DNA of 62,636 nt, from the NCBI GenBank assembly GCA_017416915.1, contig JAFQAN010000010.1:1-62636 (forward strand), written 5' to 3'. Both the position numbers and the translations under genes were made by a program. How positions within the stretch are numbered: the first letter of the stretch is position 1; every line of letters starts with the position of its first letter. This DNA is from Alistipes sp. GTDB taxonomy: Bacteria; Bacteroidota; Bacteroidia; Bacteroidales; Rikenellaceae. This document shows positions 44,787 to 56,438 of this stretch, piece after piece. The notes beneath the pieces are model-generated. The model was not told where the DNA came from. It did not search any database and saw nothing but the letters and a program-made list of their open reading frames with translations.

Positions 44787-47378
44787 CTACATCGTGCAGA
44801 CAAACTTCTGCTCCGTGCTGTCGTCGAATGTAAGCGTAAGCGACAACTCGCCATTGAGAACTATCATAGTACCACCCGACACCGTCTTGCTCTCGCCATT
44901 AACCTTGACGCCGTCAGCGTGGAAATAGCCCTTATTTGCAGCCATTGATTTGGGACTGATATATGTAAGCTGGCAACCATTAATCGTAGTCTGTGTACCA
45001 ACCCAATCATTGACGTAGAGGTTCAGCGAACTGTTGCTATCGTTAGACAGGGCGTAAGTAAAGAAACCGTAGTCGCTATACGACTTATAGGTAAAGTTGG
45101 TAAGTCTGATAGCGCCATCATCGTCGCCACCACCAAGAACATCGTCGTCGCTACCGCCGCCACTCTCGACATCCGACAGATACTCGTAATCCTTGGTGCT
45201 ATTAACGGGACAAACAGCCGTATTAACAACCTCGTAGTCGTAATTTTCGTCATAAGCGCTGACAATAACTATTACTTCGAGATTCTCGGTTACCCAAGAG
45301 CTGTTAATGGGTATAGAGTAGCTTACCTCTGCCACTTCATCTACCTCCAATTCGCCAAGCTCGTCGCCCGAAATATCACTCTTTTTGAAAGGTGTTGCAA
45401 CATAGCGCAGAGCGTGATTGTAGGTCTTGTGCAACTCCGATGTGGCATTATTCTGAGAGGGAGAGTAGATATTATTCTCCAAAACCCATACCGCAATCAG
45501 ATACTCCATCTTCTTGGCTGACTTAACGTCCACATTGACATTGAGCGTACCCGACTGAGCTGCGGTCTCGATAGCGATACCTACGGGAGCGCCCGTCTTG
45601 CTACGGTAAGCATTGAAGGTATCGCGCATAGTTGTATTTACGAAGTAGTCATCAGAGCTGCCACGAGGGATAGCGCCACCAAAGTAGTTTAGATAGATAG
45701 TAGGCAGGTTGTCAATTCCCTGGAAAGTGTAGAGCGTCTTTGCATACGAAGAGTATGCAGGGTCATCTCCCTCAGAGTTCATAGTACCTGCGTGGAGTGT
45801 TACCTCGTTATAGTAGTTCTTATACTCCGAATTAGCCAACGCGTGCATACGGTCCATTGCCTCGGGGCAATAAGAACAAGCTACGTCGGTGTGTTCGAGA
45901 ATCAGCAAGCGCTGGTTAAACTGCGACTCAACAGAGACACCTGGACCTGAGCCACCACCCGACGACTCGCCTGTGATGAAGTCGTAGCCAACGATATACT
46001 CCTTGTAGGGCTCCCAATCGGGGTGCGTAGCGTATGTCTCCACAGCGCTCATAGGAACATAAATCAACGCGCCTACATATTTATAGCCACCCGACACTGC
46101 ATCATCACGCAGAAGAGCGCTTTCTCCAAGCGACGGAGGTGTCGTTGAACGTATATAGAGCGATTGTAGGTTGCTACAATTAGAGAACGCTCCAACACCG
46201 ATACTCTCGATGCTATTGCCGATATGTACGGTTTCGAGGTTTGTAGAGCCAAGGAACGCTGCCTGACCAATGGTGGTTACCGTATTGGGCAGATAGATAA
46301 TCGACAACTTGCTATTGTAGAAAGCAGCCTGATTTACCGTCGTTACATTGCTGTCAAAGTCGATAGCGTAGTATGCGTAGCACGAGCCATTAGCGCAAGC
46401 ACCAAAGGCGTGGTTTGTAATATTGGCATTGGTGGGCGATGTCGAGAGTGATAGCTGACCGCTGTCCGACGTATTGTACCATATAGAGTAGTCGTAGGGA
46501 TACTTAGCCTCAACAACAGGCTCGTCGCCCTGCTCGGGGACAAACTCAAATGCCGCCATAGGCTGAATGGTGCGGCGCTCGATAACAACCTTATTAGAGG
46601 TACTCTTAGTCATCTTGCCACCCTCGATATTCTCTATTTCGATGGTTATACCCTCCTCGAATGTCGTAGGCAACAAGCCGATATAGAACGACGTTGCATC
46701 GTCCGTCATAAGAGGCACACCATCCTCGCTCGTAAGCGTCAGCGTCGTGGTAGGCGCGTCGGTAGCTGTAAACGAAGCGGTAGCATCGGCTACGTTGATT
46801 GTAACAGCGCCAGCAAGCTGCTCGTTTTTGTTACCCGTGAGCTTAATAGAGGTGATAAGCTGTGTATCGCCCGTAAGGTTAATCTTCAACCAACCATAGA
46901 CATTTTTGAGCATAATATCGTTAGACGTACTCTGCGCCACCATAAGGTTGCCACCCTCGCCATAGCCATTCTCGGCGTAGTGCTGCTCAGCGGCGATGGT
47001 TGCCTTTACTGCATTGTTTTCGATGTCGTAGGTGTAGTTGGCATTGTCGGGATAAAGCACCACGATATTGCCACTAACGCTGGGGGCATCGACCTCGCCA
47101 ACAGGGGCTATCACACCCGAGCGGTCGCCCGTATTGCCCTGGAACTGCCACTGCTGATAGATGGGCGTCTTGTAGAATACCGACACCAAGTCGTTCTTTG
47201 TCCATACGGTCTTGCCCGCCTCGTCGAGCTGCACACGGCTCTCATCGGCATCTGACTCGAAGCCGACATTAAGGAGCAAAGATGAGTTATCAACGACAGG
47301 CTTCTCGACACCAATTTCGGCTTGCGTACACGCGGCAAACGCCACAATCGCAAACAAATATAGGATAACTTTTTTCAT
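44787..47378 (-). CDS. Fimbrillin-like / BspA leucine-rich / Omp28-type lipoprotein
   Basis: The 863-residue product (start at 47378) has lipobox AFAAC (Cys17). Residues about 25-290 look like a fimbrillin/Mfa-like domain (TVWTKNDLVSVFYKT, SGNIVVLYPDNANY). Residues about 340-470 carry BspA-type leucine-rich repeats (NTVTTIGQAAFLGSTNLETV, IESIGVGAFSNCSNLQSLYI). After a Gly/Ser linker comes an Omp28-like thioredoxin-fold domain with the CxxC motif CSYC (about residues 500-503, in LEHTDVACSYCPEAMDRM). A beta domain ends the protein. Adhesion plus a redox-like domain on the cell surface is the inference. The frame extends upstream to 47438 but overlaps the small gene there; the signal peptide fixes the start. 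Confidence 0.85.
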   Translation of the reverse strand: MKKVILYLFAIVAFAACTQAEIGVEKPVVDNSSLLLNVGFESDADESRVQLDEAGKTVWTKNDLVSVFYKTPIYQQWQFQGNTGDRSGVIAPVGEVDAPSVSGNIVVLYPDNANYTYDIENNAVKATIAAEQHYAENGYGEGGNLMVAQSTSNDIMLKNVYGWLKINLTGDTQLITSIKLTGNKNEQLAGAVTINVADATASFTATDAPTTTLTLTSEDGVPLMTDDATSFYIGLLPTTFEEGITIEIENIEGGKMTKSTSNKVVIERRTIQPMAAFEFVPEQGDEPVVEAKYPYDYSIWYNTSDSGQLSLSTSPTNANITNHAFGACANGSCYAYYAIDFDSNVTTVNQAAFYNSKLSIIYLPNTVTTIGQAAFLGSTNLETVHIGNSIESIGVGAFSNCSNLQSLYIRSTTPPSLGESALLRDDAVSGGYKYVGALIYVPMSAVETYATHPDWEPYKEYIVGYDFITGESSGGGSGPGVSVESQFNQRLLILEHTDVACSYCPEAMDRMHALANSEYKNYYNEVTLHAGTMNSEGDDPAYSSYAKTLYTFQGIDNLPTIYLNYFGGAIPRGSSDDYFVNTTMRDTFNAYRSKTGAPVGIAIETAAQSGTLNVNVDVKSAKKMEYLIAVWVLENNIYSPSQNNATSELHKTYNHALRYVATPFKKSDISGDELGELEVDEVAEVSYSIPINSSWVTENLEVIVIVSAYDENYDYEVVNTAVCPVNSTKDYEYLSDVESGGGSDDDVLGGGDDDGAIRLTNFTYKSYSDYGFFTYALSNDSNSSLNLYVNDWVGTQTTINGCQLTYISPKSMAANKGYFHADGVKVNGESKTVSGGTMIVLNGELSLTLTFDDSTEQKFVCTM

Positions 47379-47400: not shown

Positions 47401-47535
47401 TTACCAATTTTGAATTTCATTCTCGATAGGGTCTTCAAGGTTTGTCTGGTCGAAGCCCGCCTCTACAAACAGTTGCACTACCTCGACATCTGGTGAAAGG
47501 TAGTCGCTCTTGACATTCTCATTTTTCATAGGCAT
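47401..47535 (-). CDS. 44-residue peptide upstream of the Omp28/BspA lipoprotein
   Basis: ATG at 47535 (or 47529), TAA at 47403-47401. The product starts MPMKNENVKSDYLSP and continues DVEVVQLFVEAGFDQTN, ending in Trp. It has no signal peptide or membrane helix. Its stop is 22 nt before the lipoprotein start, so both are in one message. It shares length (44 residues) and the layout Y-x-x-P ... EAG(F/Y) with the peptide at 54089, which is also followed by a lipoprotein. Short proteins of this look are frequent in Bacteroidota, but I know of no function. Confidence 0.65.
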   Translation of the reverse strand: MPMKNENVKSDYLSPDVEVVQLFVEAGFDQTNLEDPIENEIQNW

Positions 47536-47637
47536 AGCTAAAAAAGATCGTCGTCTTAGAATATTTTTAGGTTAATATAAAATTTTCGTAGTTGGTGTGT
47601 TACCACCCTCAACATATGTTTTACAATTTTGCTATGC

Positions 47638-47667
47638 AAAGGTACTCTTTTCTGAGATTTTAGCAAA
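47638..47667 (-). promoter_or_regulatory. Promoter of the peptide-lipoprotein pair
   Basis: Minus strand TTG (47667-47665), 19-nt gap, TACCTTTG (47645-47638). The leader before the peptide ATG is about 97 nt. Confidence 0.7.
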
Positions 47668-47744
47668 TATTTATCCTAAAAAAAATGCTACCATACGATA
47701 CAACAGTGGTCAAGACCGTGCGAGATGACTTAAAAATAGGTATG

Positions 47745-47884
47745 AAGCGCCACCAAAACGCACTCCTCAGTAGGTCATAGCGAGGCTGACGGCGTAGCCG
47801 TGTTGGTGGAGTGATGGCGGGACAAACTTTGTTTGTCAAACGCCATAACTACAACAACAGATACAACCTGTTGTAAGCCTCGCG
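47745..47884. other. Hairpin-rich non-coding segment
   Basis: No reading frame is convincing. Nested inverted repeats are visible: CCACCAA/TTGGTGG (47750-47756, 47803-47809), GCGAGGC/GCCTCGC (47780-47786, 47877-47883), ACGGC-GTA-GCCGT (47789-47801), TGGCG/CGCCA (47815-47819, 47841-47845), palindrome 47821-47837 and ACAACAG/CTGTTGT (47854-47860, 47868-47874). A tandem AACGACAACC repeat follows at 47888-47910. Confidence 0.5.
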
Positions 47885-47912
47885 GAACAACGACAACCAA
47901 CGACAACCAACA

Positions 47913-47966
47913 AAAAAACGACCTGCATAACTGCAAGTCGTTAAGTGGAGGTGGCGGGGGTCGAAC
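47913..47966 (-). repeat. Second copy of the tmRNA 3' end and terminator (direct repeat A)
   Basis: 54 bp identical to 48186-48239: the tmRNA terminator hairpin, the acceptor strand and the T-arm part up to GGGGTCGAAC. Identity stops abruptly there, inside the T-loop. It has the position of an attachment-site copy left by an element that integrates into ssrA. Confidence 0.85.
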
Positions 47967-47970
47967 GTAA

Positions 47971-48178
47971 GGCAATTTGCCTTTCGTCGCCGTACATCGG
48001 CAATGGAACTATTGTCGATGTGCGGCAACCCCGAATAAAATCAGCGCCACCGAAACGCAGTAAAAGAGCAAAGACGCAAGCCGTAGGCGGTGTGCCGAGA
48101 GGTTTGGGCAAGGGAGCTTGCTCACTAATGCACAAGCCTCTTGGCGCACGACATAACCGCAAGGTTATGCGTCTTTGC
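47971..48178 (+). ncRNA. Possible structured RNA between the two tmRNA 3'-end copies
   Basis: Helices: 47971-47981 is a short palindrome; 47989-47999 pairs with 48016-48026 (11 bp, one G-U); GCAAAGACGCA (48068-48078) pairs with TGCGTCTTTGC (48168-48178); 48090-48106 pairs with 48133-48149 (17 bp, three G-U); GGGCAAG (48106-48112) with CTTGCTC (48117-48123; one G-U). All five non-Watson-Crick positions are G-U if the plus strand is the RNA and A-C mismatches if the minus strand is. No promoter seen. It may be an RNA gene or a palindromic repeat. Confidence 0.4.
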
Positions 48179-48185
48179 CATAAAC

Positions 48186-48215
48186 AAAAAACGACCTGCA
48201 TAACTGCAAGTCGTT
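48186..48215 (-). terminator. tmRNA terminator
   Basis: AACGAC-TTGCA pairs with TGCA-GGTCGTT around GTTA, then TTTTTT on the minus strand. Confidence 0.85.
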
Positions 48216-48239
48216 AAGTGGAGGTGGCGGGGGTCGAAC
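48186..48239 (-). repeat. tmRNA 3' end, intact copy (direct repeat B)
   Basis: The 54-bp partner of 47913-47966, offset by 273 bp. This copy continues into the full tmRNA. Confidence 0.85.
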
Positions 48240-48618
48240 CCGCGTCCAAACAAGGAACCCCAAAGCTTTCTACATGTTTAGCCAACCGTTTCATCCTTCT
48301 ACTCAAATCAGGCAGGCGGCAGCCAAATCTGAGTCCCAGCCCCTAAATCTCGCACGATAACCGAGGCACATACCGCGCTATCTCTTAATTGATGATACCC
48401 CGTAAGAAGACGCGTTAAAGAGCGGAACACACCTTCGGGATACTCGTCGCACAACCGCCTTGGGTCGCGCGATTAAGCCAATTTTCCCTGAAAATTAGGC
48501 AGCGAGTGCATAGCTATTATTGCCATTTGTAGTTTGAGTGTTGCGATTTACGAGACCCCACACAATGCTCGACATGCTTACAATCGAATTCTACCTGCTG
48601 TCAAAACCGGTCACCCCC
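48219..48618 (-). ncRNA. ssrA: tmRNA
   Basis: Rescues stalled ribosomes and tags the nascent protein for degradation. On the minus strand the 5' end GGGGGTG pairs with the 3' CACCTCC, and the T-arm is GCGGGTTCGACCCCCGC. The tag frame reads ...NGNNSYALAA followed by TAA (about 48505-48540), which ends in the conserved ALAA. Length is about 400 nt. CCA is not encoded. A TACTTTTG at 48708-48701 may be its -7 element, implying a processed 5' leader. Confidence 0.95.
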
Positions 48619-48716
48619 GATACTCTGTCGCGAGACAAAACCCGCAACCGTTGTCCGTTAAGCGAACGATGGTTAATAGCCGGATGTTTCAAATGCAGTG
48701 CAAAAGTAATAATTAT

Positions 48717-48747
48717 TTGTGTAATGTGAAAATATTTTTTAATTTTG
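48717..48747 (+). promoter_or_regulatory. ftsE promoter
   Basis: TTG at 48717-48719, 20-nt gap, TAATTTTG at 48740-48747, 22 nt before the ATG. Confidence 0.65.
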
Positions 48748-48769
48748 CAGATATATAAGCGAACTTTTT

Positions 48770-49507
48770 ATGGAGAACAAGAGAGTCATAGAGCTTAAAG
48801 GCGTCTCGATATACCACGACGACACGACGGGTCGCTCGAAACGCGCTAAGGCAGATAGCGACTTGGTGCTGTCGAATGTAAACCTCACGGTGGATGAGGG
48901 TGAGTTTGTCTATCTTATCGGCAGAGTAGGCTCGGGCAAGTCATCACTGCTCAAAACACTATATGCCGAGGTGGACCTCTACGATGGTGAGGCAACGGTG
49001 GTAGGCTTCGACCTACGCACCATCAAGCGCCGTCAGATACCCCACTTGCGTCGCGCTATGGGCATAGTATTTCAGGACTTTCAGCTACTCACCGACCGCA
49101 ACGTATTCCTAAACCTCTACGACGTGATGCGAGCTACGGGGTGGAGCAACGAGAGCGACATACGCAGCCGCATTGACGAGGTGCTACACCTTGTGGGCTT
49201 GGAGAATAAGACCTACAAGATGCCATTCGAGCTATCGGGTGGCGAGCAGCAGCGCCTAGTCATCGCACGTGCCTTGGTAAACAGACCTCGCCTACTACTT
49301 GCCGACGAGCCTACGGGCAACCTCGACCCTGTAACGGCTGAGGGCATAATGGAGATTTTCCGCAAGATTGCCCAGAGTGGATGCGCCGTGGTGATGTCCA
49401 CGCACAACATATCGCTTATCGAGCAGTATCCCTCGCGAACGATACTCTTTGCGCAGGGACACATCTCGGAGGTCGATGTAAACACCCTTATTGATGCGGT
49501 CAATTAG
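48770..49507 (+). CDS. ftsE: Cell-division ABC transporter ATP-binding protein FtsE
   Basis: ATPase that works with FtsX at the division site to control peptidoglycan hydrolases. The 245-residue product has Walker A GRVGSGKS (51-58), Q-loop in [10 protein letters not shown], signature LSGGEQQR, Walker B LLLADEP and the switch His in STHNISL. An N-terminal insert ([16 protein letters not shown]) before strand 2 is Lys/Arg-rich. No ftsX is adjacent. Confidence 0.9.
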
Positions 49508-49521
49508 CAAACACTAAACCT

Positions 49522-50511
49522 ATGGTACTTAAAGGTATATATACACCCGCCGAGGAGCGTTACCAGCGTGAGACGATATACGCTCGCTGCGGCAATAGCG
49601 GTGTGTTACTCCCCAAGATAAGCCTCGGCTTCTGGCACAACTTCGGCGGTAACGACCCCTACGAGCGTAGCCGCGCCATCACGCACTACGCCTTCGACCA
49701 CGGCATCACACACTTCGACCTTGCGAACAACTATGGACCCCCGTACGGCACCGCCGAGGAGACGATGGGACGCCTCATAGAGGATGACTTTCGACCCTTC
49801 CGCGACGAGCTGTTCATAAGCACAAAGGCGGGATACGATATGTGGCCTGGTCCGTATGGCAACTGGGGCTCACGCAAGTATCTGATGTCGAGCCTCGACC
49901 AGAGCTTGAAGCGTATGAAGCTGGACTACGTAGATCTCTTTTACAGCCACCGCTACGACCCCGCCACGCCACTCGACGAGACATTGCAGGCGTTAGTGGA
50001 TATTGTTCGTGCGGGCAAGGCGCTATATGTGGGCATCTCGAATTGGCCATTAGAGGCGCTCAAATATGGACACGCCTACCTAAAAGAGCGCGACGTGCCG
50101 CTACTCATCTATCAGGGACGTCTCAACATCCTCGACCGTGCGCCACAGCAGACGGGCATCCTCGACTTCTGCGCCGAGCAGGGCATAGGCTTCATCGCCT
50201 TCTCGCCACTGGCACAGGGGCTACTAACCGACCACTACCTACGTGGCATACCGCAAGGGTCGCGTATGTCGCGCGAGACATCGCTACGCTCATCGACACT
50301 AACACCCGAACTGCGTAACACGCTACTATCGCTCAACGACCGCGCCGAGGCCCTCGAAACGGAGCTTTCGACGTTGGCTATCGGCTGGGTATTGGCGCAG
50401 CGTGGCGTAACGTCGGCACTTATCGGAGCAAGCTCCGTAGAGCAGCTCAAAGATAACCTCGACTACCTGAACGGCGAGCCTTTTACCGCCGAGGAGCTAT
50501 ACGGCATTTAG
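49522..50511 (+). CDS. Aldo-keto reductase, YghZ-like
   Basis: NADPH-dependent (beta/alpha)8 reductase. The 329-residue product has the catalytic tetrad in HFDLANNYGPPYG (Asp, Tyr) and LFISTKAG (Lys) with His in YVDLFYSHRYDP, and the cofactor region GVTSALIGASSVEQLKDNL. The order and the length fit the AKR14/YghZ group (L-glyceraldehyde-3-phosphate reductase), related to potassium-channel beta subunits. It lies 14 nt after ftsE on the same strand; no functional link is known. Substrate is not proven. Confidence 0.9.
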   Translation: MVLKGIYTPAEERYQRETIYARCGNSGVLLPKISLGFWHNFGGNDPYERSRAITHYAFDHGITHFDLANNYGPPYGTAEETMGRLIEDDFRPFRDELFISTKAGYDMWPGPYGNWGSRKYLMSSLDQSLKRMKLDYVDLFYSHRYDPATPLDETLQALVDIVRAGKALYVGISNWPLEALKYGHAYLKERDVPLLIYQGRLNILDRAPQQTGILDFCAEQGIGFIAFSPLAQGLLTDHYLRGIPQGSRMSRETSLRSSTLTPELRNTLLSLNDRAEALETELSTLAIGWVLAQRGVTSALIGASSVEQLKDNLDYLNGEPFTAEELYGI

Positions 50512-50535
50512 AAAAATAGGACACACAACAGAGGA

Positions 50536-50567
50536 GGGGATGACTACAAAATAGTCATTCCCTTTTT
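50536..50567 (+). terminator. Terminator after the aldo-keto reductase gene
   Basis: GGGGATGACTA (50536-50546) pairs with TAGTCATTCCC (50552-50562, one G-T), then TTTTT. Confidence 0.85.
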
Positions 50568-50587
50568 GTTAGGAGGCTGAATTGCCC

Positions 50588-52702
50588 TTAGTTCCAGAGA
50601 TACGACGTCTGATAGTATGCCGCAGCACGACGCACTATACCCTCGTCGATGCGCTCCACAGCCGTCATACGATACTCACTATCGGACAGCTTCGTGGCGT
50701 GGTACTGCTTGACACCGTCGCTGAGCGACTTGCGGCTTGTCGCGTTACGGGGCGAGAAGATGGTGAGCGTATCGTTTTGCAGATAGCCCAAATCTTGATA
50801 GGTGGCGATAAAGGCGCGCTCGGGGTACTCCTCGTCGAGGATATTGCGACCGTAGAAGTGCGACTCGTACTCCATACCGAGCAGCGCAAATAGCGTCGGC
50901 ATAATGTCTATTTGTGAGCAGGTCTTCTCGACCACCTGAGGTGCAAAGCGGTTAGGGGCATATATCACGGCAGGGATGCGGTACTTGTCGAGCGGTATCT
51001 CTATCTTGCCTGCACTCGACGCACAGTGGTCCGCCGTAACCACAAACACCGTATTCTCAAACCACGGCTCACGCTCCGCCATCTCGAAGAACTTACCTAA
51101 GGCATAGTCGGTGTACATCACACCACCCTCGCGGGTTTTACTCTCGGGCGAGATGGATATTTTGCCGTCGGGATAGGTGTAGGGGCGATGGTTACTCACG
51201 GTCATCACGTGGGCAAAGAAGGGAGCATCGCTATCCGCCGTGTGCTTCTTGCCAAGCTCGCGTATGACCATACGGTAGGCATCCTCGTCGCACACGCCCC
51301 ATATATTCTCGAAGGAGATATCGCTCGACGAGTAGTTGTTGCGGTCGATGATGGCGTAGTGGTTAGAGCCGAAGAATGCCTGCATATTGTCGAAGTAGCT
51401 CTTGCCGCCATAGAAGTAGGTTACGTCGTAGCCCTTCTGCTCTTTGAGCATACGCCCCGTAGAGTGCATATTGGCGTGGTCCTCGCGCTTGATGATACTC
51501 TGCCCTGGGCAGGGTGGCAGCGACAAGGTTACAGCCTCCAACCCACGCACGGTGCGGTTTCCCGTGGCAAATAGGTTGTCGAAGACGATACCGCGACGAC
51601 ACAACGTATCGAGGTTGGGGGTAAGGTGCTGCGTATTACCGTAGCGCTCCAAGAACGACGCCGACATACTCTCGATGGTAATAAGCACGATATTGGGGCG
51701 CTGCTCGACGCTATCGCCACGCTCAACACGGCGATTATCCTCCGTAGAGCCATACTCGGCATATATAAGCAGCTTCGCCTCCTCATCATCCAACGTGGGA
51801 TAGAACTGCTTATAGTCGATATTATTCTTCATAAACGCCTCGAAGAAGCGATAGGCACCATTTGCCTGCAACTCGTTAAGATAGACGTTCGGCGTATGCT
51901 GCAACTGAGCCGTAAGACGCAGCGTGCCGAACGAGAGCAGAGCCGCCACGACATACAACACCGTAGCTCTACCCCTCCACGACCAGCCGCCATCGACCAG
52001 CACCTCAGCCGAGCGTACATCCCGCCTAAATAGAAGCCACGCCACCGCCGAGCATACGACCATAAGCACCGATGCCATAGGTATTATGGGATACGACTCC
52101 ATAATATTGCCTATGACCTCATTAGTATATATAAGGTAATCCACGGCGATAAAGTTGTAGCGTACGCCAAACTCATCCCAGAAGATATACTCGCTGACCA
52201 TATTGAAGATAATGACGCTAACGTAGGCAAGCAGCCACGCCCCAAAGCCGAAGCGCAGCATAGCTCTACGCCACCTCGGAGCAAAGAGCTTAACGCCAAA
52301 GTTAAGGGCGAAGAGCGCCGTGAGCAGCGACCCTACAAGCGGCGCTACGCTGCCGTAGTCGTCGAGCATAGTGTGGGCGAAGGTGGTATAGAGGAAGCCC
52401 GCAACCATAACGCCAAACACCACATAGCCGTAGGGTTTGCGGTACTTCTCTTCGAAGGCAAGCATCATAAAGAGCCACAAAAAGAGGTAGCCGATACTCA
52501 TAACCGCCATATCGTTGATGGCGCCGACAAGGAATATCTCCAACCACCCTACCACCGTGAAATCGACCTCTACGGTCTGCTGATTAAAGAGCAGAGCCAC
52601 ACGCAGCAGCGTACACACCACCGCCGCGAGGGCCAACATTTTGAGCCATACGCGCACAAAGAGGCGCATAGCAGCATTATCGCCTAACAGATTAACCTTC
52701 AT
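50588..52702 (-). CDS. LTA synthase family phosphoglycerol transferase / sulfatase-fold membrane enzyme
   Basis: The 704-residue product has five N-terminal membrane helices (to about residue 255) and an extracytoplasmic alkaline-phosphatase-like domain. Motifs are NIVLITIESMSASFLERYG (metal Glu), TGNRTVRGLE with the probable Thr nucleophile (about residue 382) and VTADHCASS (about residue 555). It resembles LtaS and the OpgB/EptA group. In a Gram-negative cell it would transfer phosphoglycerol or a related group to envelope glycans; the acceptor is unknown. It is separated by 5 nt from the C_GCAxxG_C_C gene on the same strand. Confidence 0.9.
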   Translation of the reverse strand: MKVNLLGDNAAMRLFVRVWLKMLALAAVVCTLLRVALLFNQQTVEVDFTVVGWLEIFLVGAINDMAVMSIGYLFLWLFMMLAFEEKYRKPYGYVVFGVMVAGFLYTTFAHTMLDDYGSVAPLVGSLLTALFALNFGVKLFAPRWRRAMLRFGFGAWLLAYVSVIIFNMVSEYIFWDEFGVRYNFIAVDYLIYTNEVIGNIMESYPIIPMASVLMVVCSAVAWLLFRRDVRSAEVLVDGGWSWRGRATVLYVVAALLSFGTLRLTAQLQHTPNVYLNELQANGAYRFFEAFMKNNIDYKQFYPTLDDEEAKLLIYAEYGSTEDNRRVERGDSVEQRPNIVLITIESMSASFLERYGNTQHLTPNLDTLCRRGIVFDNLFATGNRTVRGLEAVTLSLPPCPGQSIIKREDHANMHSTGRMLKEQKGYDVTYFYGGKSYFDNMQAFFGSNHYAIIDRNNYSSSDISFENIWGVCDEDAYRMVIRELGKKHTADSDAPFFAHVMTVSNHRPYTYPDGKISISPESKTREGGVMYTDYALGKFFEMAEREPWFENTVFVVTADHCASSAGKIEIPLDKYRIPAVIYAPNRFAPQVVEKTCSQIDIMPTLFALLGMEYESHFYGRNILDEEYPERAFIATYQDLGYLQNDTLTIFSPRNATSRKSLSDGVKQYHATKLSDSEYRMTAVERIDEGIVRRAAAYYQTSYLWN

Positions 52703-52707
52703 ATCGA

Positions 52708-53190
52708 CTATCTATTTTTGATATACTCTGCCACGATACGCGCTGCCGTTGCAACATACTCTACGCAGGGACGCTTACGGTAGTACTCCGCCGTGCGTTC
52801 CGAGGGCATAGCACCCTCCGATGCCACCTCGCGAGGCTCCAAACCCAATAGCCGACGGCACACTATGTCGCCATTCTCCTTGCGAAAAGCCTCGGCAAAG
52901 CGCTGCACAAGGGCATAGTTTGCCTGACGCTCACCCATATTCTTGGGGTCGGTCGAGGGCGACAACGCACCTGCCACCATAGCCATACCACTTACCGTGC
53001 CACACACCTCGCGAAGACGGCCCATACCGCCACCAAACGGAGCAGCAAGACGCGCTGCACCCTCCGTGCTGCTCTGCATAACATCTGAAAAGGTCATCAC
53101 CACCGCCTGTGCGCAGTTGTAGCCCGAGGTGAAGTAGTTGCGTGCCATAGCAACACGCTCCTCGACATCAATAGTTATCGTTTTTTCCAT
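52708..53190 (-). CDS. C_GCAxxG_C_C family redox protein
   Basis: The 160-residue product has the family Cys pattern: NCAQAV (Cys26), FGGGMGRLREVCGTVSG (Cys63), IVCRRLLG and RPCVEYVATAARI. The family is thought to be membrane-associated or redox-active, but no reaction is established. The frame extends upstream to 53226, but ATG at 53190 (MEKTITIDVEERV) follows a -7 element at 53221-53214. It is immediately upstream of the LTA synthase-like gene. Confidence 0.88.
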   Translation of the reverse strand: MEKTITIDVEERVAMARNYFTSGYNCAQAVVMTFSDVMQSSTEGAARLAAPFGGGMGRLREVCGTVSGMAMVAGALSPSTDPKNMGERQANYALVQRFAEAFRKENGDIVCRRLLGLEPREVASEGAMPSERTAEYYRKRPCVEYVATAARIVAEYIKNR

Positions 53191-53199
53191 TTTATTTCG

Positions 53200-53221
53200 T
53201 ATATTTGTCGTCGCAAAGATA
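53200..53221. promoter_or_regulatory. Interlocked divergent -7 elements
   Basis: Plus strand TATATTTG (53200-53207) for the HsdR_N gene and minus strand TATCTTTG (53221-53214) for the C_GCAxxG_C_C gene. They lie 6 nt apart, so the two start sites would overlap and probably compete. Confidence 0.6.
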
Positions 53222-53247
53222 TACATTTATTTCGATTATTGTTCACT

Positions 53248-53694
53248 ATGTCGTACCCTAAACTGAGCTTCCCGCCCATCGAGCTACGCGCTCGACACAA
53301 TGCCAACGGTCGTACCGAGGTCTTCGACAAGATACGAGGGCGCTGGTTGGTGCTTACACCCGAGGAGTGGGTACGTCGCCACGTGGTAGGATATTTGCTC
53401 ACGGCGTGTGGCTTCACCGAGCAGCAAATCGTCGAGGAGTACCCTGTGAACATCAACGGCTTAGCACAGCGCGCCGACATTGTAGCCATAGGCAGCAACC
53501 AGCGTCCGTTGGTGGTTGTAGAGTGCAAAGAGCCGAGCGTGAAAATCGACCACGGCGTATTCAGTCAGGCGGTACGCTATAACTCCGTCTTGGGTTGCCG
53601 ATATGTCGTACTGACAAACGGCATAGAGACCTTCACGTGGCACTGCTCGTCGAAGGGCTATACGCCCATAGGCTTCTTCCCGCACTTCGAGTAG
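53248..53694 (+). CDS. Stand-alone HsdR N-terminal-type PD-(D/E)xK nuclease domain
   Basis: The 148-residue product (start at 53248; the frame opens at 53239) has the nuclease core RADIVAIGSNQRPLVVVECKEP: Asp77, then Glu92-x-Lys94. It also has VNINGLAQR and a following helix-strand QAVRYNSVLGCRYVVLTNG. This is the N-terminal domain of type I restriction subunit R without helicase, HsdM or HsdS. Such stand-alone proteins are common in Bacteroidota, and no restriction genes are near. A housekeeping repair role is possible. Confidence 0.85.
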   Translation: MSYPKLSFPPIELRARHNANGRTEVFDKIRGRWLVLTPEEWVRRHVVGYLLTACGFTEQQIVEEYPVNINGLAQRADIVAIGSNQRPLVVVECKEPSVKIDHGVFSQAVRYNSVLGCRYVVLTNGIETFTWHCSSKGYTPIGFFPHFE

Positions 53695-53855
53695 GTCGCC
53701 TAAGTAGTACAAATCTCTACAACAATCGATTATTGCAACCTATTTTCCACAAAGCGACAGGCTGTAAATCGAGGCATAAAATATTCTAAACAGTTCAAAT
53801 TAGCCTATTGGTCAAAAAAAATCATAAAATAGCACAATATTAACAAATAAATATA

Positions 53856-53863
53856 TATCTTTG
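53856..53863 (+). promoter_or_regulatory. -7 element of the second peptide-lipoprotein pair
   Basis: TATCTTTG. A transcript from near 53870 would have a leader of about 220 nt before the peptide ATG at 54089, including the G10 tract. The rest of 53695-54088 holds no convincing gene. Confidence 0.6.
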
Positions 53864-53935
53864 TGGGCAAATAAAGTAATATAGCGCATATATGTTTGAC
53901 TCTAAGCAATATACACCCAATTACCTTCACTATGA

Positions 53936-53945
53936 GGGGGGGGGG
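53936..53945 (+). repeat. G10 homopolymer tract in a leader
   Basis: Ten G in a row directly after an ATG-A (53932-53935). A short upstream frame starts at that ATG and its end depends on tract length: 31 codons with ten G, 32 with nine, about ten with eleven. A possible slippage site; could also be miscounted in sequencing. Confidence 0.6.
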
Positions 53946-54088
53946 ATTTTCGTGCTTTTATAGTCAAATTTTCTACCACAAACGCTTCACAAAAACATTT
54001 AAGACAATCATCAGGCATAGCTCATAGCTAAGCCCGATAAACTATTGTATTTAGCCAACGACAATAATCTAAAACAAACAATAACAAA

Positions 54089-54223
54089 ATGAAGACATCA
54101 ACTTTTTCTACAATGCACTACGAAGCGCCCTGCTTACTTACTGAGGAGGTGCTGATTGAAGCTGGCTACGGCGTATCGGGAGGACACGTCGGCGGCGACT
54201 CATCATTCGAGGAAGAGGACTAA
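54089..54223 (+). CDS. 44-residue peptide upstream of the fimbrillin/FISUMP lipoprotein
   Basis: ATG at 54089 with AACAAA before it, TAA at 54221-54223. The product starts MKTSTFSTMHYEAP, continues CLLTEEVLIEAGYGVSGG and ends in an acidic EEED. No signal peptide or membrane helix. The lipoprotein ATG follows 19 nt later. It has the same length and partly the same layout (Y-x-x-P, EAG-aromatic) as the peptide at 47401. One Cys is present. Confidence 0.65.
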   Translation: MKTSTFSTMHYEAPCLLTEEVLIEAGYGVSGGHVGGDSSFEEED

Positions 54224-54242
54224 CATTAACTTTTACGCAACA

Positions 54243-56438
54243 ATGAGACTTATCAAATATATTGGAGTTGTGGTAACGCTAGGCGTTATTGCAGCAGGCT
54301 GTATGACGGAATTTTCAGAGCCTATAACAGCTACACGCAACGGACGCGAAGTGATAGTTAGTGCCTCGCAAGAGCTTACTCGCGCCCACGTCAGCGAGGT
54401 GGACACCAGCGTAGGAACATCGTCATATCTTTGGGATGAGGGCGATGCTATTGGCGTATTTGTTAGCGGTCCGACCACCGAGACCAACGCTAAGTTTACA
54501 TCAGTATCGGGTGCCGATGTTGAAAAAGCAGCATTCAAAGGAACATTCCTCTCTGAGGAGGCCTCGGGTACACACACCTACTACGCCTACTCACCATATA
54601 ACGCATCGGCAGGCAGCAACTTAAACGCTCTTAGTGGCACACTTAGCGCTACACAGACACAGACCAGCACAAAGGGTACGCACATCGGCGCAAATATGCT
54701 CGAATTAGCCAAGACTGAGGCAGAGGGTAACAATGGTGCAGCACTCGAATTTAGAAATATGTTCGCGGTGCTCAACTTCAAGATTAAGTATCGCGCCAAA
54801 GGCGTTGATGGCGAAACCGAAGACCTTTCGAATGCCATAGTATCGAACGTACGTATTTTTGCTGCGGAAGATAGCGAATCTACGACGCCTCTCTACGGCA
54901 CAGATTTTTGTTTTGCGGGCGACTACACATTCGACCTCGAAAATCAGAGCGTAACGATGAATAGTGCCTCGTACAGTTGGGTTGTCGATTGTAAGCTAAC
55001 AGGCGACAACATTGTTACAAGTACAACCAACGATGGTGCTTTGGATGTATGGGTTGTGGTAAATCCCATAAACTTAGGCACAAACAAGCTCGTTGCGGAG
55101 ATTGTTACGGACAAGGGTACATTCCACACCACTCGCTCGATAAAGAGCAACAACGGTCAGCTGATGCCTAATACGGTATATGTACTTCCTGCAACCATCA
55201 AGACTCCCAAGGTTGTTCCTCAGGCATATCCTTTGTGGACCGAGGGCGAAGGTTTCTTTTCTACCCTATCACTTGACGGCACGGTGGCTAATGCAGACAG
55301 CGCAATAGAGCTTAAACCCGCAAACAGCTTTATGGTGCAACCAAATACGCTATACAAGTTCAATGCTAACATCCGCGGTCGTGGAGCTCAGGGTGTCGCA
55401 GCTATGGGCATAACCTCGGACGACATCATTGGTGACTACGCCATAAATGCGGATGGCTCGCTGACATCGGTACTGGGTAACGACAACTGGATATATTTCC
55501 AAACATCGACAGCAGGTAACGGCGTAATCTCCCTTTACTTTGGTAGCACCGCTATTTGGAGCTGGCACGTGTGGTCAGTAGAGGATACTCCCACCTCGAT
55601 ACAAGTTACCGACGATATTTATGTTCTCGACCGCAATTTAGGAGCTACGCTCGTAGCGCCGAGCAATACCAAAACAGGTAATTTCTATTACTACTCCGTA
55701 AAGGCTGCTGGACTCTACTATTGTTGGGGATACAACGTGCCGTTCCCGGGTATGCCATTCGGCAGCAGCTACAATGGCAGCCCTACAAAATCACAAGCAC
55801 TCCTCGACATATATTACTACAACGGCACAAGTACGGCACAAAATGTTACATCACGCTACAACGTGCCCGCAGCTGGTCTGTCAGCATCGTTAATGCAGCC
55901 ACATACCCCCGCTAACCTACGAAACAATAGCGAGATAAATGCTGCGACCGACAATTACAGCGCAATGTGGGGTTACAAGGACGGCTCGTACGAAAAGTCG
56001 GCATTCGACCCGTGCCCCTACGGCTACCGCGTACCATCGTCTGATGAGTTGGATGCAATGACCATAACCAGCGTTATCAACCGTTGTACACCCATCGTAT
56101 ATGGCGGGACAAACGCCACATATCTACCAAAGATGGGTATCGTTGGTCTTATGACCGATAACAACGTATGGCAAATTCAGAGCATTGGCTCAGGCTTCTA
56201 CTGGTCGGCAACTCCCGCAGAAGTATCGCAAAATGGCGGCTCGATAACTACCACAACATGGAATCAGGAGACAGGAGAGTTTGAGAGTAACTTCCAGAAC
56301 GAGTGTAACAACAGCCGTGCAATGTCACACTACTATCAGGGCGGAACGACCCACTTTGCCTTCGCAATCTCTCGCTTCCAAGGCGCCCCTGTACGCTGCG
56401 TGAAGTATGATGCAGAGAGCGGCTCAGCAACTAAATAA
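54243..56438 (+). CDS. Fimbrillin-family lipoprotein with C-terminal FISUMP domain
   Basis: The 731-residue product has lipobox IAAGC (Cys20). Residues about 25-325 are a fimbrillin/Mfa-like region (VSTS...YLWDEGDAIGVFVS, GTHTYYAYSPYNASAGS, LEFRNMFAVLNFKIKYRA). A beta domain follows. From about residue 455 comes a FISUMP-type domain (VLDRNLGATLVAP, FDPCPYGYRVPSSDELDAM, GFYWSATP, SRFQGAPVRCVK). It is probably a surface adhesin or minor tip component. The frame opens at 54156 inside the small gene, but the signal peptide fixes the start at 54243. Confidence 0.88.
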   Translation: MRLIKYIGVVVTLGVIAAGCMTEFSEPITATRNGREVIVSASQELTRAHVSEVDTSVGTSSYLWDEGDAIGVFVSGPTTETNAKFTSVSGADVEKAAFKGTFLSEEASGTHTYYAYSPYNASAGSNLNALSGTLSATQTQTSTKGTHIGANMLELAKTEAEGNNGAALEFRNMFAVLNFKIKYRAKGVDGETEDLSNAIVSNVRIFAAEDSESTTPLYGTDFCFAGDYTFDLENQSVTMNSASYSWVVDCKLTGDNIVTSTTNDGALDVWVVVNPINLGTNKLVAEIVTDKGTFHTTRSIKSNNGQLMPNTVYVLPATIKTPKVVPQAYPLWTEGEGFFSTLSLDGTVANADSAIELKPANSFMVQPNTLYKFNANIRGRGAQGVAAMGITSDDIIGDYAINADGSLTSVLGNDNWIYFQTSTAGNGVISLYFGSTAIWSWHVWSVEDTPTSIQVTDDIYVLDRNLGATLVAPSNTKTGNFYYYSVKAAGLYYCWGYNVPFPGMPFGSSYNGSPTKSQALLDIYYYNGTSTAQNVTSRYNVPAAGLSASLMQPHTPANLRNNSEINAATDNYSAMWGYKDGSYEKSAFDPCPYGYRVPSSDELDAMTITSVINRCTPIVYGGTNATYLPKMGIVGLMTDNNVWQIQSIGSGFYWSATPAEVSQNGGSITTTTWNQETGEFESNFQNECNNSRAMSHYYQGGTTHFAFAISRFQGAPVRCVKYDAESGSATK

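Follow-up and report, generated by a model that had tools for sequence, protein, structure and literature searches.

The window considered here, i.e., the whole 62,636-nucleotide stretch of contig JAFQAN010000010.1 from Alistipes sp. (assembly GCA_017416915.1), carries two genes of 44 codons, each lying directly ahead of a gene for a surface lipoprotein, and on sequence grounds both are members of one unnamed family. The peptides they encode, hereafter peptide 1 and peptide 2, probably act as precursors in a Bacteroidales pathway akin to that of linear polyphosphorylated peptides (LPPs), the latter being a system for ribosomally synthesized and post-translationally modified peptides (RiPPs) described in Paenibacillus alginolyticus (lppAKBSDN; Nat Commun 2026, PMC13381572). 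The excerpts of that paper used here give a precursor of 35–200 aa with the consensus YxxPxVLxHQxIxFETxxS, a leader whose Y-x-x-P is held by residues N33 and D70 of LppB and which is cut by the signal-peptidase-like LppS, assisted by the RiPP recognition element (RRE), and a core, beginning with A-Q-S in LppA, whose Ser 3 is polyphosphorylated in a kinase-dependent manner. They also state that LPPs are “restricted to the Bacillota” and give their biological role as unknown.

In the proposed scheme, the Y-x-x-P leader of the window peptides would be held by a free-standing, PqqD-like RRE, an HprK-like kinase would phosphorylate the Ser located three residues past the conserved G-F, and an enzyme of the NTP_transf_5 type may extend the phosphate. 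An archaeal-type signal peptidase would cleave after the leader, at about the junction of G-F and x-x-S, and an MsbA-like ATP-binding cassette (ABC) transporter would export the acidic core. A single machinery would serve some 13 precursors in the window's own genome. Each of them would be expressed together with a fimbrillin-fold surface lipoprotein of its own, the probable role of which is to carry, receive, or display the core once exported.

As far as the excerpts of PMC13381572 go, the likeness to LPP includes the Y-x-x-P leader with a variable C terminus, the Ser placed 18 (LPP) or 19 (here) residues past the Tyr, candidates for the same five protein types, the association with capsule loci, and the core start, A-Q-S in LppA and frequently A-x-S here. 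Regarding the differences, the hosts are Bacteroidales instead of Bacillota, a genome has up to 23 precursor matches instead of 1–3 per cluster, and most precursors lie far from the enzymes and beside a lipoprotein gene, whereas those excerpts mention lipoproteins nowhere. Since the LPP consensus is not matched, the family is classed as LPP-like and not as a member of LPP. No description of a Bacteroidales peptide-lipoprotein or LPP-like system was found in open-licence PMC text, and what is new here is the Bacteroidales host group and the presence of one precursor per lipoprotein gene.

The family was defined by searching each window peptide against 101 relatives (E ≤ 1), with matches in 54 genomes for peptide 1 and 35 for peptide 2, several of them at the same places. 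The resulting profile, A1, has 52 rows, and four loci that appeared unrelated (L042, L047, L058, and L060) were excluded from it. Tyr, Pro, and Gly are invariant in its columns, Glu and Ser (E25 and S31 in peptide 1 numbering) are present in at least 90% of the rows, and the family consensus is YxAPExEVxEVxVExGFxxS, namely Y-x-x-P, an alternating E/V stretch, E-x-G-F/Y, x-x-S, and an acidic tail. In addition, a motif-only scan of GTDB contigs, which used the peptide DNA motif, was blind to the neighboring genes, and covers at least 120 stretches (829 kb, several of them from shared genomes), provided 128 listed matches of 28–63 codons (median 41, 5–95% range 34–52). Their named hosts include Bacteroides ndongoniae, Mediterranea massiliensis, B. 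rodentium, B. oleiciplenus, and metagenome-assembled genomes filed under Alistipes or Rikenellaceae. An earlier note on this DNA had read the layout as Y-x-x-P, a hydrophobic stretch, and E-A-G with an aromatic residue; both motifs are present (E-A-G-F in peptide 1, E-A-G-Y in peptide 2), but the central stretch is actually the alternating, strand-like one, and the equal length of the two genes, which had been taken as a clue, is a coincidence in view of the spread in length just given. If the core is assumed to begin after G-F, 115 of 118 peptides have Ser where LPP has its phosphoserine and three have Thr, Ala is the first core residue in 63, and the C-terminal residue differs between peptides (W 23, F 22, E 11, L 11, and others).

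The substitution pattern indicates that the peptide frame is under purifying selection, i.e., coding, with a ratio of nonsynonymous to synonymous change (pN/pS) of 0.36 over 24 disjoint pairs and 0.34 over 39 pairs, the latter with 237, 220, and 509 differences at the three codon positions; the loss of frame conservation that the earlier note had named as contrary evidence is thus not what these pairs display. Neither window peptide reached the cut-off in Pfam or NCBIfam (one Pfam match, E = 0.13), nor did any of 52 family relatives. The family as a whole had sub-threshold matches only in Pfam, NCBIfam, and PDB, including Nif11 and paeninodin models at E of about 0.05–0.06, a hint of RiPPs that is not used as proof.

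With A1, 13 matches were found in the window's own genome (E ≤ 1e-3), one of which (contig C14) lacks a start codon ATG in frame as assembled, and 472 in the genus, distributed over 54 of 61 genomes at the same threshold. An even sample of the phylum gave a match in one of 296 genomes, the window's own, and a sample of the order in 13 of 295 (E ≤ 0.01), of which the match in G501 is false because it sits in a 1324-aa frame. These two samples show that either A1 is biased toward the genus or the family is patchy.

The recurrent peptide-lipoprotein module suspected in the earlier note is established at the sequence level. Within the window, the two 44-codon ORFs (open reading frames), their strands, and their distances of 22 and 19 nt from the lipoprotein start codons (ATG at 47378 and 54243, respectively) agree with what that note had reported. 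In the whole genome, each of the 13 A1 matches is followed within about 52 nt by a same-strand protein that is positive by a lipobox rule. Among the motif matches listed, two of the 128 are cut, and 119 of the other 126 have an ORF within 100 nt, always a lipoprotein, compared with lipoproteins at 16 of 170 ordinary gene pairs from the same stretches. These lipoproteins mostly share their N-terminal domain (93 of 116 in a single cluster) and vary in their C-terminal modules, such as LRR_5 with Omp28, LRR_5 with M64, Mac-1, and fn3; the domain scan took in 10 of the 11 own-genome lipoproteins located outside the window. Two own-genome examples behind family peptides are a Mac-1-type protein (L104, 1674-4694, E = 4.6e-14) and an M64 IgA-peptidase-type protein (L105, 4953-7379, E = 1e-22).

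As for the lipoproteins of the window, lipoprotein 1 has the announced Omp28 module (Pfam E = 1.1e-24), along with a BspA-type LRR_5 region (E = 2.2e-18) that had not been listed, while the FISUMP module attributed to lipoprotein 2 stays under the cut-off (Pfam E = 0.092; NCBIfam E = 0.015, 16.0 vs 41.65 bits). Their description as fimbrillin-like finds no counterpart in Pfam, which detected a fimbrillin domain in neither, and holds for lipoprotein 1 at the level of predicted fold. Its modeled N-terminal domain (predicted local distance difference test, pLDDT, 84) has 3t2l as best PDB match (E = 7.2e-9), reaches Mfa3 (5nf4) at E = 5.7e-4, and finds only Bacteroides or Porphyromonas adhesins, fimbrial proteins, or the P. 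gingivalis antigen PG49 among its top 16 matches (E ≤ 0.001). Although template modeling (TM) scores with fimbrial adhesins are modest (0.43–0.47), the model places this domain in the two-domain fold of type V fimbrial adhesins, the Mfa_like_1 type, from which several lipoproteins here differ in carrying extra C-terminal modules. We know of no description of the type V fimbrial adhesin family that includes an upstream peptide.

The pairing could also be that of a lipoprotein with an unmodified cytoplasmic partner, e.g., a private chaperone or the pilus assembly factor named in the earlier note, and one peptide per lipoprotein gene would suit such a role. Moreover, the more alike two lipoproteins are, the more alike are their cores (157 pairs, r = 0.19, p = 0.002), a result that counts for the LPP-like reading as well, while leader similarity does not track that of the lipoproteins in the same pairs (r = 0.04, p = 0.09). 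This explanation is nevertheless highly improbable: 20 of 30 fimbrillin-type (Mfa_like_1) loci have no peptide, family peptides also occur in enzyme operons devoid of a lipoprotein, and the peptide has no signal peptide, whereas lipoproteins fold outside the cytoplasm. None of the findings supports an assembly factor that works in the cytoplasm without modification; we favor instead an exported core that would be displayed or captured by the paired lipoprotein.

The genome of the window encodes candidates for all five LPP enzyme types, i.e., an RRE, an HprK-like kinase, an NTP_transf_5 protein (PF14907, E = 1.7e-42), an MsbA-like exporter (ABC_tran, E = 7.3e-34, with MsbA among the best NCBIfam matches), and an archaeal-type signal peptidase. 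The PqqD-like RRE, on contig C1 (PF05402, E = 5.2e-16), matched nothing in PDB as a single sequence, but as a profile it found the lasso RREs TfuB1 (E = 4.6e-7) and TbiB1 (E = 0.0075), and its model (pLDDT 90.5) matches TbiB1-leader complexes with TM scores of 0.71–0.75. Asn35 and Asp73 are invariant in nine such RREs and are spaced as N33/D70 of LppB, a comparison made by residue numbers and not by sequence. The kinase has the motifs GESGTGKST, LNDDSP, and GSPWSG (Walker A and HprK-like) and 39 invariant columns in an alignment of seven relatives, though its profile matched no kinase in PDB. TIGR02228, archaeal signal peptidase I, is the best NCBIfam match of the peptidase and the best match at three loci (E = 3.1e-5, 1.8e-8, and 1.2e-4, all below the cut-off). 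The exporter, kinase, and peptidase genes are adjacent on contig C32, and the NTP_transf_5 gene is located about 20 kb away, inside a cluster of polysaccharide (capsule) type. The NCBIfam “HPr-rel-A system” (TIGR04352 kinase, TIGR04353 PqqD-like) provides the best or second-best model for the RRE and the kinase, but their scores are far under the curated cut-offs.

Precursor and enzymes are not clustered in the window's genome, in contrast with two other loci. In L224, one of the seven listed peptides with no lipoprotein within 100 nt, the peptide gene is the first of an operon with a PqqD-like RRE, a P-loop kinase, NTP_transf_5, an ABC exporter, and an S24/S26-like peptidase; no such operon was found for the other six within the stretches examined. 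In another Bacteroidales genome, G079 (L292), the full set forms one operon in the order precursor, kinase, peptidase, RRE, NTP_transf_5, and exporter. Overall, enzyme genes are present in eight of the 120 listed motif stretches (829 kb), L224 included. These operons also bear on the possibility that the peptides are precursors of a different RRE-dependent product, e.g., a linear relative of lasso peptides bearing another modification, with the lipoprotein acting as immunity protein, receptor, or merely co-regulated neighbor. Y-x-x-P is the lasso RRE motif and the RRE resembles lasso B1 proteins, and the phosphorylated lasso peptides of the paeninodin type share the RRE, the HprK-like kinase, the NTP transferase, and a [Y/W]xxP leader, according to the excerpts of PMC13381572. 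However, no lasso cyclase or B2 peptidase was found in L292, L224, and L295, either within the operons or in the nine flanking genes checked, genome-wide searches not being part of this count, and the combination of kinase and archaeal-type peptidase is, in the same excerpts, that of LPP, so that we consider a product of this kind very unlikely. The modified peptide precursor, one of the example roles given in the earlier note, is the one favored here, since a RiPP system already described has a matching motif and a matching set of enzymes.

The distribution of the genes across the genus points in the same direction. Among its 61 genomes, the peptide is absent from seven, the RRE from eight, and both from six (Fisher p = 3.4e-6), and NTP_transf_5 is absent from 13, including the same six (peptide/NTP_transf_5 Fisher p = 1.9e-4), the tests being uncorrected for relatedness. 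In the 26 genomes that are at least 90% complete, peptide, RRE, and NTP_transf_5 agree in every case (23 with, three without). This co-occurrence is left unexplained by a regulatory leader, in which translation of the short ORF would couple or tune that of the lipoprotein, by coupling or nascent-chain control, and the peptide would be otherwise useless; also unexplained are the family members that head lipoprotein-free enzyme operons. The conserved residues, moreover, lie in the middle of the peptide and not at the stop, as arrest peptides would have them, and the last residue is variable. Such a leader is supported by the gap to the lipoprotein gene, with a median of 36 nt (range −29 to 89) among the matches listed, and by the tendency of the peptide to be the first gene after a promoter: within 350 nt of the own-genome copies, TAnnTTTG is present in 10 of 12 cases and the full motif in seven of 12, where shuffles expect 1.56 and 0.08, respectively. 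Peptide 1 has the full TTTG-N19-TACCTTTG and peptide 2 the TAnnTTTG portion only. We regard this explanation as unlikely, and of the translation coupling proposed in the earlier note what may stand is a by-product of tight spacing, the association with the enzymes falling outside it.

Several observations weigh against an LPP-like pathway. Peptide 1 has Thr at the position of the phosphorylated Ser, and the S3T change in LppA abolished phosphorylation (PMC13381572, excerpts); according to the same source, the cleavage motif F-E-T stands before the core where E-x-G-F stands here, and both HQ and F-E-T are absent from our family. The kinase and peptidase fall below all curated family cut-offs and were recognized by motifs and best matches, and the RRE gene adjoins recQ, apart from the other enzymes, both here and elsewhere in the genus. 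Peptides occur with no RRE found in G036 and G060, the RRE and NTP_transf_5 with no peptide in G045, and peptides with no NTP_transf_5 found in seven genus genomes, most of them incomplete assemblies; the joint absence may be a single clade event. The order sample gives a weak association, with PqqD in 11 of the 12 other peptide-positive genomes against a base of 183 in 295 (p = 0.027, or 0.040 after removal of the false match), and G519 is without it. Finally, 20 of 30 Mfa_like_1 loci have no peptide, those of three system-negative genomes among them, and the covariation of core and lipoprotein is absent in 36 pairs with near-identical leaders (p = 0.57).

Table 1. Positions of the peptide and lipoprotein genes of the window and of their associated features
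Feature	Position	Strand	Remarks
Peptide 1 gene, putative precursor	47401..47535	-	44 codons + stop; A1 match E = 3.0e-14
Peptide 1, putative RRE-binding leader block Y12-x-x-P15 ... E25-A-G27-F28	47452..47502	-	conserved A1 columns
Peptide 1, putative core D29-Q-T31 ... W44	47404..47451	-	Thr in place of Ser at core position 3; boundary inferred from that of LPP
Lipoprotein 1, 863 aa	44787..47378	-	lipobox AAC; predicted fimbrillin-fold N-terminal domain, LRR_5, Omp28
Peptide 1, Bacteroidota-type promoter TTTG-N19-TACCTTTG	47637..47667	-	motif
Peptide 2 gene, putative precursor	54089..54223	+	44 codons + stop; A1 match E = 3.0e-10
Peptide 2, putative RRE-binding leader block Y11-x-x-P14 ... 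E24-A-G26-Y27	54119..54169	+	conserved A1 columns
Peptide 2, putative core G28-V-S30 ... EEED	54170..54220	+	Ser at core position 3; boundary inferred
Lipoprotein 2, 731 aa	54243..56438	+	lipobox AAGC; C terminus resembling FISUMP, under the cut-off
TATCTTTG, −7 element, possible peptide 2 promoter	53856..53863	+	motif
G10 tract, peptide 2 leader	53936..53945	+	sole G/C run of at least 8 in the window

A few further features of these loci are recorded here. G/C homopolymers of 9–10 bases occur near peptide starts in the window (Table 1), in L108 (1470-1479, contig C14 of the same genome), and in L103 (7867-7875), and three of the 19 distinct own-genome tracts of at least nine G, on either strand, are inside a peptide gene or at most 400 nt upstream of one. 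In C14 the tract falls near the 5' end of the coding sequence, and the ATG upstream is not in frame with the peptide in the assembly, possibly by phase variation or by an assembly error; these tracts are left as a side observation and not included in the mechanism. In Bacteroides ndongoniae, peptide-lipoprotein pairs form an array (NZ_FNVV01000014.1, 1.79–1.86 Mb; L156, L179, L238, L148, L181, and L219) with near-identical leader-coding DNA, for which recombination or gene conversion is conceivable, and divergent pairs occur in this array (L148) and in L158, L204, and L211. A recombination cassette as the cause of the near-identical leaders in Mediterranea and B. ndongoniae was set aside, as it fails on the protein-level conservation across genera. 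In the genus, the RRE gene (L265, 7965-8228; L266, 8754-9017) is divergent from the recQ-like gene, and its neighbors are genes for a small protein rich in His and for a protein like TonB-dependent receptors, all names being read off the sequence. A second kind of RRE, NTP_transf_5, and kinase set is found in clusters with glycosyltransferase and Wzz-like genes (L284, L286, and L294), and in L286 it is followed by a 59-codon ORF with a Y-x-x-P-like motif.

Regarding function, one idea, speculative and on balance doubtful, is that the exported and phosphorylated core, perhaps extended by a nucleotidyl or glycosyl group, is an adaptor: its own lipoprotein would display it, the phosphate tag would tie the adhesin to the surface polysaccharide, and one enzyme set would thereby couple an interchangeable adhesin repertoire to the capsule. 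It fits, as an unproven reading, because the NTP_transf_5 gene is in a capsule-type cluster in this genome and because RRE, NTP_transf_5, and kinase genes are close to glycosyltransferase and Wzz-like genes elsewhere. If the LPP-like pathway is real, a type of RiPP biosynthesis called confined to the Bacillota would occur in gut Bacteroidales and would be reused there at large scale, as the genus-wide matches to A1 indicate. A class of small ORFs that is nameless in Pfam and NCBIfam would thereby gain a function, and the partnership with lipoproteins would be the first concrete, testable lead to the role of LPPs.

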